Shown: positions 21,070 through 43,550 of the stretch, in pieces
Layout: every line of letters begins with the position of its first letter
How positions within the stretch are numbered: position 1 is the first letter of the stretch
NCBI GenBank assembly: GCA_902806175.1
Contig: CADCVQ010000166.1
Span: forward strand, 1-45,086
From: an uncultured Solirubrobacteraceae bacterium
GTDB taxonomy: Bacteria; Actinomycetota; Thermoleophilia; Solirubrobacterales; Solirubrobacteraceae
Length of the DNA: 45,086 nucleotides
Direction: 5' to 3'
The notes under the pieces: generated by a model
What the model saw: the letters and a program-made list of their open reading frames with translations, nothing else
What the model was told of the DNA's origin: nothing
The model's database searches: none
Made by a program: the position numbers and the translations under genes

Positions 21070-21271
21070 TCGCAACGCGCGCGGGAGTCCGCCGAGACCT
21101 CATGGATCTGCTGAAGGCTCGCATCATGCGTCATCGCCGCGGGCCTCGCCCTCGCGCCTCTCGACGGCGATGCACCTCGCGGCGCGCGAGATCACGTCGC
21201 TGCTCGCGCCGGGCTGACACGCAGCGATGAGCTCCGCCGGATCGCATAGCGACCATCGTGCCTCATGGGAG

Positions 21272-21299
21272 TTGGCAGCGGTCGGAATGGCGGTATGCT
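21272..21299 (+). promoter_or_regulatory. Promoter of second vapBC module
   Basis: TTGGCA (21272-21277) and TATGCT (21294-21299) are separated by 16 bp, and the -10 hexamer ends 6 nt before the ATG at 21306. No Shine-Dalgarno is seen, so transcription probably starts at or next to the A of the start codon. Confidence 0.6.
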
Positions 21300-21305
21300 C
21301 ACGGT

Positions 21306-21533
21306 ATGACCACCAAGATTGCGGTCAGCCTGCCGGACGACCTCGTCGCCGCCGCGCGCCAAGCCGTTGCCGACGGCCGCGCGCCATCCGTCTCGGCCTT
21401 CGTCGCCAACGCGATCGAGGAACATGGCCGCTACGAGCAACTCGCCGCGCTGTTGTCCGAGATGGCCGCAGAAGCCGGGCCGCCGACCGAGGAAGACCGC
21501 AGATGGGCGCGCCAGACGCTCGGGCTGCCCTGA
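21306..21533 (+). CDS. vapB: VapB-type antitoxin
   Basis: Antitoxin of 75 residues. MTTKIAVSLPDDLVAAARQA is a ribbon-helix-helix N-terminus, followed by PSVSAFVANAIEEHGRYEQL and an acidic tail with EEDRRWARQTLGLP. An upstream in-frame ATG at 21258 exists, but the fold and the promoter at 21272-21299 support the start at 21306. Its TGA is followed directly by the GTG of the toxin gene, without spacing. It should neutralise that toxin and repress the promoter. Confidence 0.85.
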   Translation: MTTKIAVSLPDDLVAAARQAVADGRAPSVSAFVANAIEEHGRYEQLAALLSEMAAEAGPPTEEDRRWARQTLGLP

Positions 21534-21911
21534 GTGGCCGGCGTCACGCTCGACACGGGCGCGTTGATCGCGATCGAGCGTGGTGATACCCGCCTTCAAG
21601 CCTTGCTCGACGAAGCACATGCCGCCGGTGCCGATCTCGCAGTGCCGGCGGGCGTGGTCGCACAGGCGTGGCGCGGGGGCAGTCGCCAGGCCCGCCTAGC
21701 TCGATTCCTGAGGCTCGCCACGGTGAGTGTCGTACCTCTCGACGAGCCGGAAGCCCGCGCCGCGGGTGCCCTCTGCGGGCACGCGGGCACGATTGATGTC
21801 GTCGATGCATCCGTCGTGATCTGCGCGCGCGACCGCGATCACGCCGTGATCAGTGGCGACCCCGCGGATCTCGTGGCCCTCGACCCGGCGCTCCGGATCG
21901 TTGCGCTGTAG
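21534..21911 (+). CDS. vapC: VapC-type PIN-domain toxin
   Basis: PIN-domain RNase of 125 residues. The acidic residues are in place: Asp in VTLDTGALIAIERGD, Glu in LDEPEARAAGALCG, and Asp residues in TIDVVDASVVICARDRD. Translation starts at GTG 21534 with the antitoxin stop touching it. The module differs from the vapBC at 9076-9685 in both partners, so the two are independent rather than recent copies. It lies 129 bp before the tRNA-Glu gene 3' end. Confidence 0.87.
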   Translation: MAGVTLDTGALIAIERGDTRLQALLDEAHAAGADLAVPAGVVAQAWRGGSRQARLARFLRLATVSVVPLDEPEARAAGALCGHAGTIDVVDASVVICARDRDHAVISGDPADLVALDPALRIVAL

Positions 21912-22040
21912 ATAACGCATGTGATCGCCACGTTGGTGCTCCACGCGTCACAGCCGAGATCGCGGGTTCCCCCAGACCTGGATGCCCGACGCTCGCCCGC
22001 AGTCCACAGGTTCGAACGTGCAGCGCGAGGTTCCTCGCAG

Positions 22041-22113
22041 TACCGCTACGGGGATTCGAACCCCGGTTTCCGCCGTGAGAGGGCGGCGTCCTAGTCCCCT
22101 AGACGATAGCGGC
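22041..22113 (-). tRNA. tRNA-Glu (CTC)
   Basis: The minus strand folds as a 73-nt tRNA. Acceptor arms are GCCGCTA and TAGCGGT (with a G-U first pair), the anticodon arm is CCGCC-CTCTCAC-GGCGG with anticodon CTC, and the T arm is CGGGG-TTCGAAT-CCCCG. CCA is not encoded. It is divergent from the LAGLIDADG-protein gene, with 80 bp between them. Confidence 0.95.
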
Positions 22114-22176
22114 GCGGGCGCCCACGGTAGCAAAGGGATGGGCATTGCAAATGACCTCGGACTAGCGTCCGGTGAC

Positions 22177-22188
22177 GAACATATGTTC
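22177..22188 (+). promoter_or_regulatory. LexA/SOS box
   Basis: GAACATATGTTC is a perfect 12-bp palindrome and matches the Gram-positive/actinobacterial LexA site GAAC-N4-GTTC; with the preceding C it agrees with the Bacillus-type core. It ends 5 nt before the ATG at 22194. TATGTT inside the box (22182-22187) ends 6 nt before the ATG and is the likely -10 element, so LexA binding would block transcription directly. Confidence 0.8.
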
Positions 22189-22193
22189 TCGCC

Positions 22194-22919
22194 ATGCATC
22201 CTCCCGCAGTGCACGCTCGCATCGTGGAGCTGATGGCCGAGGGCTCGTCGGATGCGGCGATCAGCGCCGCGAGTTCTGTGGCGCGTACGACGGTGCGCGA
22301 CATCCGCAGCCGCAGCACTCGCCTCAGGTGCCCGCGATGCTGGCGCGGCGCGAGACCGATGTCCTTCTCGGCAGGCGAGTACGCCGAGCTGCTGGGGTTC
22401 TACCTTGGCGACGGCTACATCGTCGCCACGGGCCGCAGCTACAGGCTGCGCATCTTCCTCGATGCTGCTCATCCCGGCATCGCCGATGAGGTGTGTGCGC
22501 TGCTCTGCATCTGCTTCGGTGCCAACCGGGTTGGCAGAACGCATCTCCGCGCGCGGTCCACGGTCGTGGCTTCGGTCTACTCCGTGCATCTCCCGTGCCT
22601 GTTCCCGCAGCATGGTCCGGGCGTGAAACACGAGAGACCGATCGTGCTGGAGGACTGGCAGCAGGCGTCGGTCGTCGCAGCACCGTGGAGCTTCATCCGC
22701 GGGCTGATCCTGTCCGATGGCTGTGCGTTCATCAACCGCACGGGCCGCTACCGGTACCTCAGCTACGACTTCTGCAACCGCTCGGCGGACATTCGCAGGA
22801 TCTTCATGGCGTCCTGCGATCTCGTCGGCGTGCGGTACACCACCAACAGCGATCGGGTCCGGATATACGGCCGTGCGTGCGTGCGCGACCTTGCGGCCTA
22901 CGTCGGGACGAAGCGTTGA
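22194..22919 (+). CDS. HTH-LAGLIDADG protein (homing-endonuclease-like), tRNA-linked
   Basis: Freestanding protein of 241 residues. Residues 9-40 form a helix-turn-helix (RIVELMAEGSSDAAISAASS, then VARTTVRDIR). A CPRC motif follows (46-49). Two LAGLIDADG-like helices are visible: LLGFYLGDG (66-74) and FIRGLILSDG (167-176), each ending in the acidic residue that binds metal in this nuclease family. Between them is LFPQHGPGVKHERPIVLEDW (136-155), shared with the paralogue at 42649-43388, and SADIRRIF follows. Nuclease activity is expected from the family but not shown. It lies between tRNA-Glu and tRNA-Leu (80 and 24 bp) and has an SOS box at its start, so it is probably induced by DNA damage. 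No intein or intron is present around it. Confidence 0.85.
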   Translation: MHPPAVHARIVELMAEGSSDAAISAASSVARTTVRDIRSRSTRLRCPRCWRGARPMSFSAGEYAELLGFYLGDGYIVATGRSYRLRIFLDAAHPGIADEVCALLCICFGANRVGRTHLRARSTVVASVYSVHLPCLFPQHGPGVKHERPIVLEDWQQASVVAAPWSFIRGLILSDGCAFINRTGRYRYLSYDFCNRSADIRRIFMASCDLVGVRYTTNSDRVRIYGRACVRDLAAYVGTKR

Positions 22920-22943
22920 TCTCGCGCTACAGTTCAGGCGCGA

Positions 22944-23027
22944 GCGGATGTGGTGAAATTGGTATACACGCAGGCTTCAGGTGCCTGTGGGGGCAACCCC
23001 GTGGAGGTTCGAGTCCTCTCATCCGCA
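22944..23027 (+). tRNA. tRNA-Leu (CAG)
   Basis: An 84-nt type II tRNA. Acceptor arms are GCGGATG and CATCCGC with discriminator A. The anticodon arm CAGGC-TTCAGGT-GCCTG gives anticodon CAG. A long variable arm (TGGGGGCAACCCCG) and the T arm GAGGTTCGAGTCCTC follow. CCA is not encoded. It starts 24 bp after the LAGLIDADG-protein stop. Confidence 0.95.
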
Positions 23028-42648: not shown

Positions 42649-43388
42649 TCAGTCTTCGCGCACCCGATCGCATCGAGCCGCGCGACGCTCGGGCGGTGCG
42701 CGACAGACACGTTGCGGGGGTTGGAGAGCGTCCAACGCACGTCGAGCGCGTCGCACGCGGCGCAGAACAGGCCGCGGATGTCCGCCGACAGGTTCGAGAA
42801 GAAGTAGCGCGCGTACGCATACTCCGCAACCCGCCCGCTCGGCAGCTTCGTCTTGAAGCGGTTCGTCGTCCGGCAGCCGTCGGAGTGGATCAGGCCGCGC
42901 ACGAACTCGTCGGGGTGCCTGTCGGCAATCTGCTGCTGCCAGTCCTCGAGCGCGATCTTGCGCTCGTGCTTGCGGCCGGGTCCGTGCTGGGGGAAGGCGT
43001 GCAGCCAGCGCTTGCCGTTCACTTGCACGTGAACGGCCCGGACGCCAGCGAGGGGCGCGAGACGCGGGCGGCAGCTCGGCATCGATAGAACAAGCGCCGC
43101 GCAGCAGTCGTCGATGATCCCTGGGTATTCGGTCCCGAGGCAGACACGCAGCATCACGCCGCCGTGGCCGGTCACGGAAACACAGCCGTCGCCCAGATAG
43201 AGCCCGAGTAGATATGCGTACGACGGGACGTGCGCCGCGCGCCAGCGAATCGCAACCGGCGGCCAGGATCGGCGCCAGCGACCGACGGTGTTCTGAGACA
43301 CACCTGTCCACTCGGCCGCCTCGCGATCGGAGAAACCGCGTTCAAGCAGCTCGCGGACACGGTTCCTGTCGCCATCCGAGCGTTGCAC
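42649..43388 (-). CDS. HTH-LAGLIDADG protein beside tRNA-Trp; 3' end altered
   Basis: Second member of the family at 22194-22919. HTH: RVRELLERGFSDREAAEWTG then VSQNTVGRWRR. LAGLIDADG-like helices: YLLGLYLGDG and FVRGLIHSDG. Shared core: FPQHGPGRKHERKIALEDWQ, and SNLSADIRGLFCAACD. The GTG at 43388 gives the same distance to the HTH as in the paralogue, and the SOS box abuts it. The paralogue stops where this frame reads GCAKTE; here no in-frame stop occurs and the frame runs on to 42324 across the glycosidase start. A TGA one base out of frame lies at 42649-42651, so a small indel near the end is likely. It follows tRNA-Trp by 58 bp on the same strand. Confidence 0.78.
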
Positions 43389-43400
43389 GAACACATGTTC
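43389..43400 (-). promoter_or_regulatory. LexA/SOS box
   Basis: On the minus strand GAACATGTGTTC fits GAAC-N4-GTTC exactly and touches the GTG start of the second LAGLIDADG gene. Its position relative to the start is nearly the same as in the first gene (22177-22188). The two sites differ at one base within 12. Confidence 0.78.
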
Positions 43401-43446
43401 CCACGGCTGCCGGACGGAGCGGCAAGCGGTCGATCCATGACCTGAA

Positions 43447-43519
43447 CGGGGCACGCAGGGCTCGAACCTGCAACCTCCGGTTTTGGAGACCGGCGCTCCT
43501 CCAGTTGAGCTAGTGCCCC
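43447..43519 (-). tRNA. tRNA-Trp (CCA)
   Basis: A 73-nt tRNA. Acceptor arms are GGGGCAC and GTGCCCC with discriminator G. The anticodon arm CCGGT-CTCCAAA-ACCGG gives anticodon CCA, and the T arm is GCAGG-TTCGAGC-CCTGC. CCA tail not encoded. It lies upstream of the second LAGLIDADG gene and divergent from the CatE-like gene. The common tRNA-Trp, secE, nusG order is absent. Confidence 0.95.
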
Positions 43520-43550
43520 AGGGCGCCTCTGAGAGTACCGCGAGCGGGCT

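Follow-up and report, generated by a model that had tools for sequence, protein, structure and literature searches.

Analysis of contig CADCVQ010000166.1 of an uncultured Solirubrobacteraceae bacterium (45,086 nucleotides in full, here called the window), supported by comparison with relatives across the class and the phylum, showed that a gene lies between two tRNA genes, encodes a protein of 241 residues with an N-terminal helix-turn-helix (HTH) and a predicted LAGLIDADG homing-endonuclease fold, and is preceded by a site of the kind found at SOS genes of the same genome. We consider it probable that this gene belongs to a family of free-standing homing endonucleases that reside at tRNA genes, some of them under the control of LexA. 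The evidence comes from the linkage of the family to tRNA genes, from empty sites in close relatives, from the SOS box, and from the predicted fold. The locus contains the following features.

22040..22113, minus strand: tRNA-Glu(ctc), left neighbour of the insertion (ARAGORN; Rfam RF00005, 58.4 bits)
22146..22923, no strand assigned: inserted segment, ends approximate (alignment to empty sites in 3 same-genus genomes; ends set by eye)
22177..22188, plus strand: SOS (LexA) box GAACATATGTTC (sequence; like sites precede SOS genes of the same genome)
22194..22919, plus strand: HTH-LAGLIDADG protein gene, 241 amino acids (aa), predicted homing-endonuclease fold (open reading frame [ORF], Pfam, family alignment, fold model)
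22215..22316, plus strand: helix-turn-helix, aa 8-41 (Pfam HTH_23 below cut-off; model helices 4-15, 20-27, 31-41)
22371..22415, plus strand: first LAGLIDADG helix, aa 60-74, LLGFYLGDG, acid D73 (alignment; model helix 60-73)
22683..22721, plus strand: second LAGLIDADG helix, aa 164-176, FIRGLILSDG, acid D175 (alignment; model helix 164-175)
22944..23027, plus strand: tRNA-Leu(cag), proposed target gene, D-stem change compensated (ARAGORN; comparison with relatives lacking the homing endonuclease gene [HEG])

The original prediction had described this layout (gene, HTH, two LAGLIDADG helices, both tRNA genes, box, and spacings), and it was right at every coordinate. The ATG lies 80 nt from the end of tRNA-Glu(ctc) at 22113, and 24 nt separate the stop codon from the start of tRNA-Leu(cag) at 22944. 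The GC content by codon position (0.61, 0.54, and 0.83) is that of a coding frame typical for the genome. Pfam LAGLIDADG_3 was matched above the cut-off (E value of 5e-5, aa 166-236), HTH_23 was matched below it (E value of 0.002, aa 8-41), NCBIfam gave no match to the protein, and the search of PHROGs returned only a weak one (E value of 0.15). The box ends 5 nt upstream of the ATG and contains TATGTT, which on reading the sequence matches the -10-like pattern TANNNT with the ATG at +1; no good -35 element is visible for this hexamer, and transcription would begin at the ATG. The stop codon is at the position of the -10 region of tRNA-Leu, which would place the -35 region of that tRNA at the end of the gene.

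The pair of tRNA-Glu(ctc) and tRNA-Leu(cag) is also present in three same-genus genomes, where distances of only 139, 115, and 110 bp separate the two and no ORF intervenes, versus 830 bp in the window. Homology to these empty sites stops after CACGGTAGCAAAGGG on the left and restarts at GCGCTA just before tRNA-Leu on the right, so the box and the gene together constitute a single-gene insertion of about 0.78 kb; no integrase was seen near the gene in the list of ORFs inspected by eye. Decayed copies are also found: one at tRNA-Trp in G087 retains only the C-terminal part and the box, and others (in G093 and further genomes) are truncated or contain stops. The gene is a free-standing ORF between two intact tRNA genes rather than part of a group I intron or an intein, and an Rfam scan at the gathering threshold found no intron family match at it.

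Homologues were collected from 299 genomes of the class, 396 genomes of the phylum, and six loci from named genomes. Matches, weak and partial ones included, occurred in 25 of the 299 and 45 of the 396 genomes, and 52 distinct full-length loci were retained for counting. Every one of the 52 is found no more than 150 bp from a tRNA gene, on both sides and in both orientations, and the partners are only leucine and tryptophan tRNAs: Leu(caa) at 31 loci, Trp at 9, Leu(tag) at 6, Leu(cag) at 5, and Leu(taa) at 1. An exact box is present within 150 bp upstream of 19 of the homologues, about 15 of these boxes being at the start and thus credible as SOS boxes. The tabulation of homologues that the original prediction proposed therefore upheld tRNA linkage as a property of the family, while a universal SOS box did not emerge from it. 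All Trp-linked copies have an exact box; copies starting 4 to 20 nt after tRNA-Leu(caa) or tRNA-Leu(cag) lack one in the intervening gap and are probably cotranscribed with the tRNA, and no exact box was found for the Streptomyces homologues. Records of phages in INPHARED and of plasmids in PLSDB contained no homologue.

Two observations concern individual linked loci. At L017 (G248), the pair formed by tRNA-Leu(cag) and the nuclease gene is preceded by a perfect box, CGAACATATGTTCG (1167-1178, reverse complement), and SOS control may thus extend to the tRNA. At L001, L003, L004, L052-L054, L059, and L079 (Streptomyces and relatives), the tRNA with a CAA anticodon beside the nuclease measures 73 to 77 nt and does not have the long variable arm that tRNA-Leu usually carries. 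When the Streptomyces carriers tested were searched with a long-arm query from another Streptomyces, no additional tRNA-Leu(caa) of the ordinary kind was found at an E value of 1e-4, a result that is not decisive.

The family also appears to have moved repeatedly. A maximum-likelihood tree of 48 proteins shows strong clustering of the partner tRNA (7 changes, versus a shuffled mean of 22.1), the outcome expected of lineages that each have a target of their own, whereas the combination of tRNA, side, and orientation, scored on 44 proteins, needs 13 changes, which indicates that the gene has often taken up new positions next to the same kinds of tRNA. On viral contigs, family members begin 4 to 16 bp after tRNA-Leu(taa), and one member (L198:4930-5770) is flanked by the 5' part of a tRNA-Leu gene and by a part with its T arm and acceptor, the anticodon arm being missing; these viral copies suggest the tRNA-Leu gene itself as the target. 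Of the roles suggested in the original prediction, the best reading is that tRNA loci serve as places for homing, given a one-gene insertion with empty sites, renewed placements by the same tRNA, and a viral copy inside tRNA-Leu; guarding of tRNA loci is not supported.

The window's own genome contains one paralogue, found by a genome-wide search and absent from the original prediction. It lies in the same window, beside tRNA-Trp.

42654..43394, minus strand: second family member, 43% identical (genome search; frame open to ~42327)
43389..43400, minus strand: SOS box GAACATGTGTTC, overlapped by the GTG start of this family member (sequence)
43446..43520, minus strand: tRNA-Trp(cca), same strand as the second copy, ~45 nt upstream of its box (ARAGORN; Rfam)

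Because the frame of this copy runs on to about 42327, its stop codon seems to have been lost.

The identity of the box was examined in the window and in the 4.1-Mb genome. The pattern GAACN4GTTC occurs twice in the window versus 0.4 expected, and at least two sites arose in 8 of 100 shuffles; such counts miss that the two sites mark the starts of the two family members. A relaxed box (flanking CG pair, at most two mismatches) was uninformative in the window, with 120 matches against 96 expected, and the bare pattern is at chance level across the genome (39 sites, versus 42 for the reversed control). Fourteen of these sites, chiefly those with AT-containing spacers such as ATNN, were inspected for downstream genes, which proved to be lexA (box GAACAGATGTTC), dinB (box GAACATGTGTTC, with the start codon inside or adjoining the box, as in the second copy), dnaE2, an imuB-like gene of the Y family, and genes for an SplB-like radical SAM protein and a DUF5131 protein. 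The site type of GAACATATGTTC is thus common to known SOS genes of the same genome, which bears out its description as an SOS box; as the same type precedes lexA, dinB, dnaE2, and the imuB-like gene, LexA control of the HTH-LAGLIDADG gene is well founded by analogy. Of the 39 genomic boxes, five are no more than 150 bp from a tRNA gene (0.17 expected), although one of the five is lexA's own and may be a coincidence. A perfect box elsewhere in the genome (L037; G000:C7:1007) is overlapped by the GTG start of a 101-aa protein with a weak HEAT match, a candidate new SOS gene.

An AlphaFold2 model built with 24 family members predicts the fold of the protein with a predicted local distance difference test (pLDDT) score of 90.3, and Pfam and the model agree on a LAGLIDADG fold with two motif helices. 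The nearest solved structures are TliVMA (Z score of 16.1), I-Tsp061I (15.9), WhiA from S. venezuelae (15.6), and I-DmoI (~15). The acids D73 and D175, which end the motif helices, are invariant in 24 of 24 family sequences, and this favors an active nuclease. I-DmoI, I-Tsp061I, and other monomeric LAGLIDADG endonucleases share the fold and the two conserved motif acids; enzymes of the I-DmoI/I-Tsp061I type are intron or intein encoded, whereas the window protein is free-standing, has an N-terminal HTH, is adjacent to tRNA genes, and is a predicted nuclease.

A like pattern was found in an unrelated family. PF11645 (PD-(D/E)XK_5, I-Ssp6803I-like) was examined at 28 loci (L205-L234) from 149 genomes of the class; at 27 of the 28 the gene adjoins or overlaps a tRNA gene, most often tRNA-Ala(ggc), and at 10 of the 28 an exact box is found upstream. 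This family is tRNA linked and in part preceded by SOS boxes, as is the window family, but it has an unrelated fold and is linked to tRNAs for Ala, Thr, Arg, Ser, and Tyr. In the window's genome, a PF11645 gene (L103:892-1424; G000:C160; E value of 3e-11) has box GAACGTATGTTC just upstream and ends about 22 bp before tRNA-Tyr(gta); this is the same layout as that of the window gene in an unrelated nuclease family. Two unrelated nuclease families therefore share, at the level of linkage, a niche at tRNA genes, in part with SOS boxes. Three further loci of the same genome may be mentioned. At G000:C146, a PF11645 ORF continues into a tRNA-Ala gene, so that the C terminus of the protein would be encoded by tRNA sequence. 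A small protein with the motif LAGLLEGEG (L107:789-1452; G000:C175) has box GAACACATGTTC and adjoins tRNA-Gln(ttg); in G122, a relative is located within a long array of tRNA genes, and relatives occur in 3 of 299 genomes, too few for a test. A 235-aa HTH protein (L089:1918-2724; G000:C81), with no Pfam match beyond the HTH, has box GAACGCATGTTC and starts about 27 bp after tRNA-Glu(ttc).

The tRNA-Leu(cag) gene next to the insertion carries a paired D-stem change, C11-G24 to T11-A24, together with changes in the D loop. Among HEG-free genomes of the class, 32 of 33 tRNA-Leu(cag) genes have the standard GCG/CGC D stem (two of the 32 scored after correction of a one-base parse offset); the sole exception, G230, belongs to the same genus and may have lost the gene. 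Linked tRNA-Leu(cag) genes are altered in 3 of 5 cases versus 1 of 33 HEG-free cases (P of ~0.005), the linked gene at L010 being one with a standard stem. A tRNA acceptor/T-arm pattern was rejected as an unbiased sampler of tRNA-Leu(caa), since it reached only 13 of 199 genomes. We regard protection of carriers by recoding of the tRNA as a hypothesis.

These results can be brought together in a model in which a one-gene element, comprising a monomeric LAGLIDADG core and an N-terminal HTH, would have landed between the tRNA-Glu and tRNA-Leu(cag) promoters. LexA bound to the observed box over the start region would keep the gene off; upon DNA damage or entry of single-stranded DNA, RecA would become active and LexA would be cleaved, so that the enzyme would be made while recombination proteins are abundant. 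It would then cut the tRNA-Leu gene of an allele without the insertion, and repair from the carrier chromosome would copy the gene and its flanks into the cut allele. The carrier may be protected by the altered adjacent tRNA-Leu, as the D-stem change suggests, and by the insertion itself. Lineages of the family, judged from their linkage, would serve tRNA-Leu(caa), (cag), (tag), or tRNA-Trp, and PF11645, again at the level of linkage, shows the same association with tRNA genes and the same box in this class.

Several points weigh against this model. We infer cleavage, the target site, and induction by damage; the predicted fold alone does not distinguish a nuclease from a WhiA-like factor, as WhiA matches it as well as I-DmoI does. 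With an exact box at only 19 of 52 loci, SOS control is not a trait of the family, and the chance of a tRNA gene lying within range, about 1.3% per locus, indicates scale only, as the linked loci are not independent. The D-stem signal depends on a sample of five linked tRNA-Leu(cag) genes, and linked and unlinked D stems of tRNA-Leu(caa) did not differ significantly (P of 0.18). Moreover, the genome's own tRNA-Leu(gag) keeps the standard D arm, so the carrier would be cut there if the D arm alone were the target; the position of the gene outside the tRNA does not by itself explain how the target would be protected.

The match to WhiA raises the question of whether the protein is instead a domesticated regulator that binds DNA without cutting it and tunes transcription of the neighboring tRNAs in the SOS response. 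WhiA is a transcription factor with a C-terminal HTH that has lost nuclease activity. WhiA (DUF199) shares with the window protein the core fold, a DNA-binding HTH, and occurrence in Actinomycetota, and a place amid tRNA promoters, like regulation by LexA, would be in keeping with a role in the stress response. In the window protein, however, the HTH is N terminal (aa 8-41) and both motif acids are invariant, which a pure binder would not need, and WhiA is not known to be tRNA linked or mobile. The patchy distribution (partial matches included), the empty sites and decayed copies, the varying side and orientation to the tRNA, and the same linkage in a second, unrelated nuclease family also speak against a regulator, and we regard this explanation as unlikely. 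Carriage as cargo of integrative elements that land at tRNA genes, with no tRNA targeting of its own and with a box inherited from elements excised in the SOS response, would draw on the facts that tRNA genes are common integration sites and that SOS boxes are common in prophages. This seems highly improbable, as the insert of ~0.78 kb holds one gene with no integrase seen beside it, the 52 loci use leucine and tryptophan tRNAs only where generic elements use many, the partner tRNA tracks the protein tree, and no phage record in INPHARED or plasmid record in PLSDB matches.

A toxin/rescue function, in which the ordinary tRNA-Leu gene falls to the nuclease and survival is limited to cells with the altered linked tRNA (cleave-and-rescue), would account for the D-stem difference between linked and HEG-free genes and for the several linked tRNAs that begin the nuclease transcript, the gene starting 4 to 20 nt after them. 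But the numbers are small, L010 is standard, tRNA-Leu(caa) shows no significant difference, altered tRNAs occur in some HEG-free genomes, and the alleles may merely be carried along in homing; we find such a function quite improbable. A wider proposal, which we offer tentatively and consider doubtful, is that several unrelated nuclease families may independently have become SOS-timed selfish genes of tRNA loci, with cutting tied to RecA and repair and with the linked tRNA recoded by paired stem changes yet functional and uncut, as in a natural cleave-and-rescue element of bacterial chromosomes.

To our knowledge, chromosomal homing endonuclease genes of bacteria are mostly known inside introns or inteins. 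SegB is a GIY-YIG enzyme, reportedly described for the tRNA region of phage T4 by Brok-Volchanskaya in 2008, and the original definition of 13E12 in the LexA regulon is said to be that of Davis in 2002. A search of the literature in open-license papers, most subscription papers being outside its scope, found none joining LAGLIDADG, LexA, and tRNA, and the main text of a genome-wide LexA study in Streptomyces venezuelae contains no mention of tRNA or LAGLIDADG (PMC9380542). The claim of a new type of system was nevertheless too strong, in view of two partial precedents. T4 SegB, named in the reference list of PMC10448857 as a free-standing homing endonuclease serving the T4 tRNA region, likewise acts without an intron or intein and promotes inheritance of that region; it is phage borne, whereas the window family combines LAGLIDADG and HTH, occupies bacterial chromosomes as one gene by single tRNAs, and has an SOS box in part. 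The mycobacterial 13E12 repeat family, assigned to the LexA regulon, likewise consists of repeated nuclease-like genes under LexA but is HNH rather than LAGLIDADG, and tRNA linkage is not described in the relevant passages of PMC4181829. The proposed mechanism is of a known kind, that of free-standing homing endonucleases; what is new is the phylum-wide linkage to tRNA genes together with SOS control. If correct, a free-standing family beside essential tRNA genes that inserts around them repeatedly and partly answers to LexA would account for the persistence of such genes in bacteria, through cutting at times when recombination can follow. A driver of sequence change in tRNA genes would also become testable, and the family provides enzymes that may recognize tRNA genes; the like pattern in an unrelated nuclease family suggests that the niche is a general one.

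Just left of tRNA-Glu in the window, at 21258-21911, two overlapping ORFs resemble by eye an antitoxin/toxin pair of the vapBC type.
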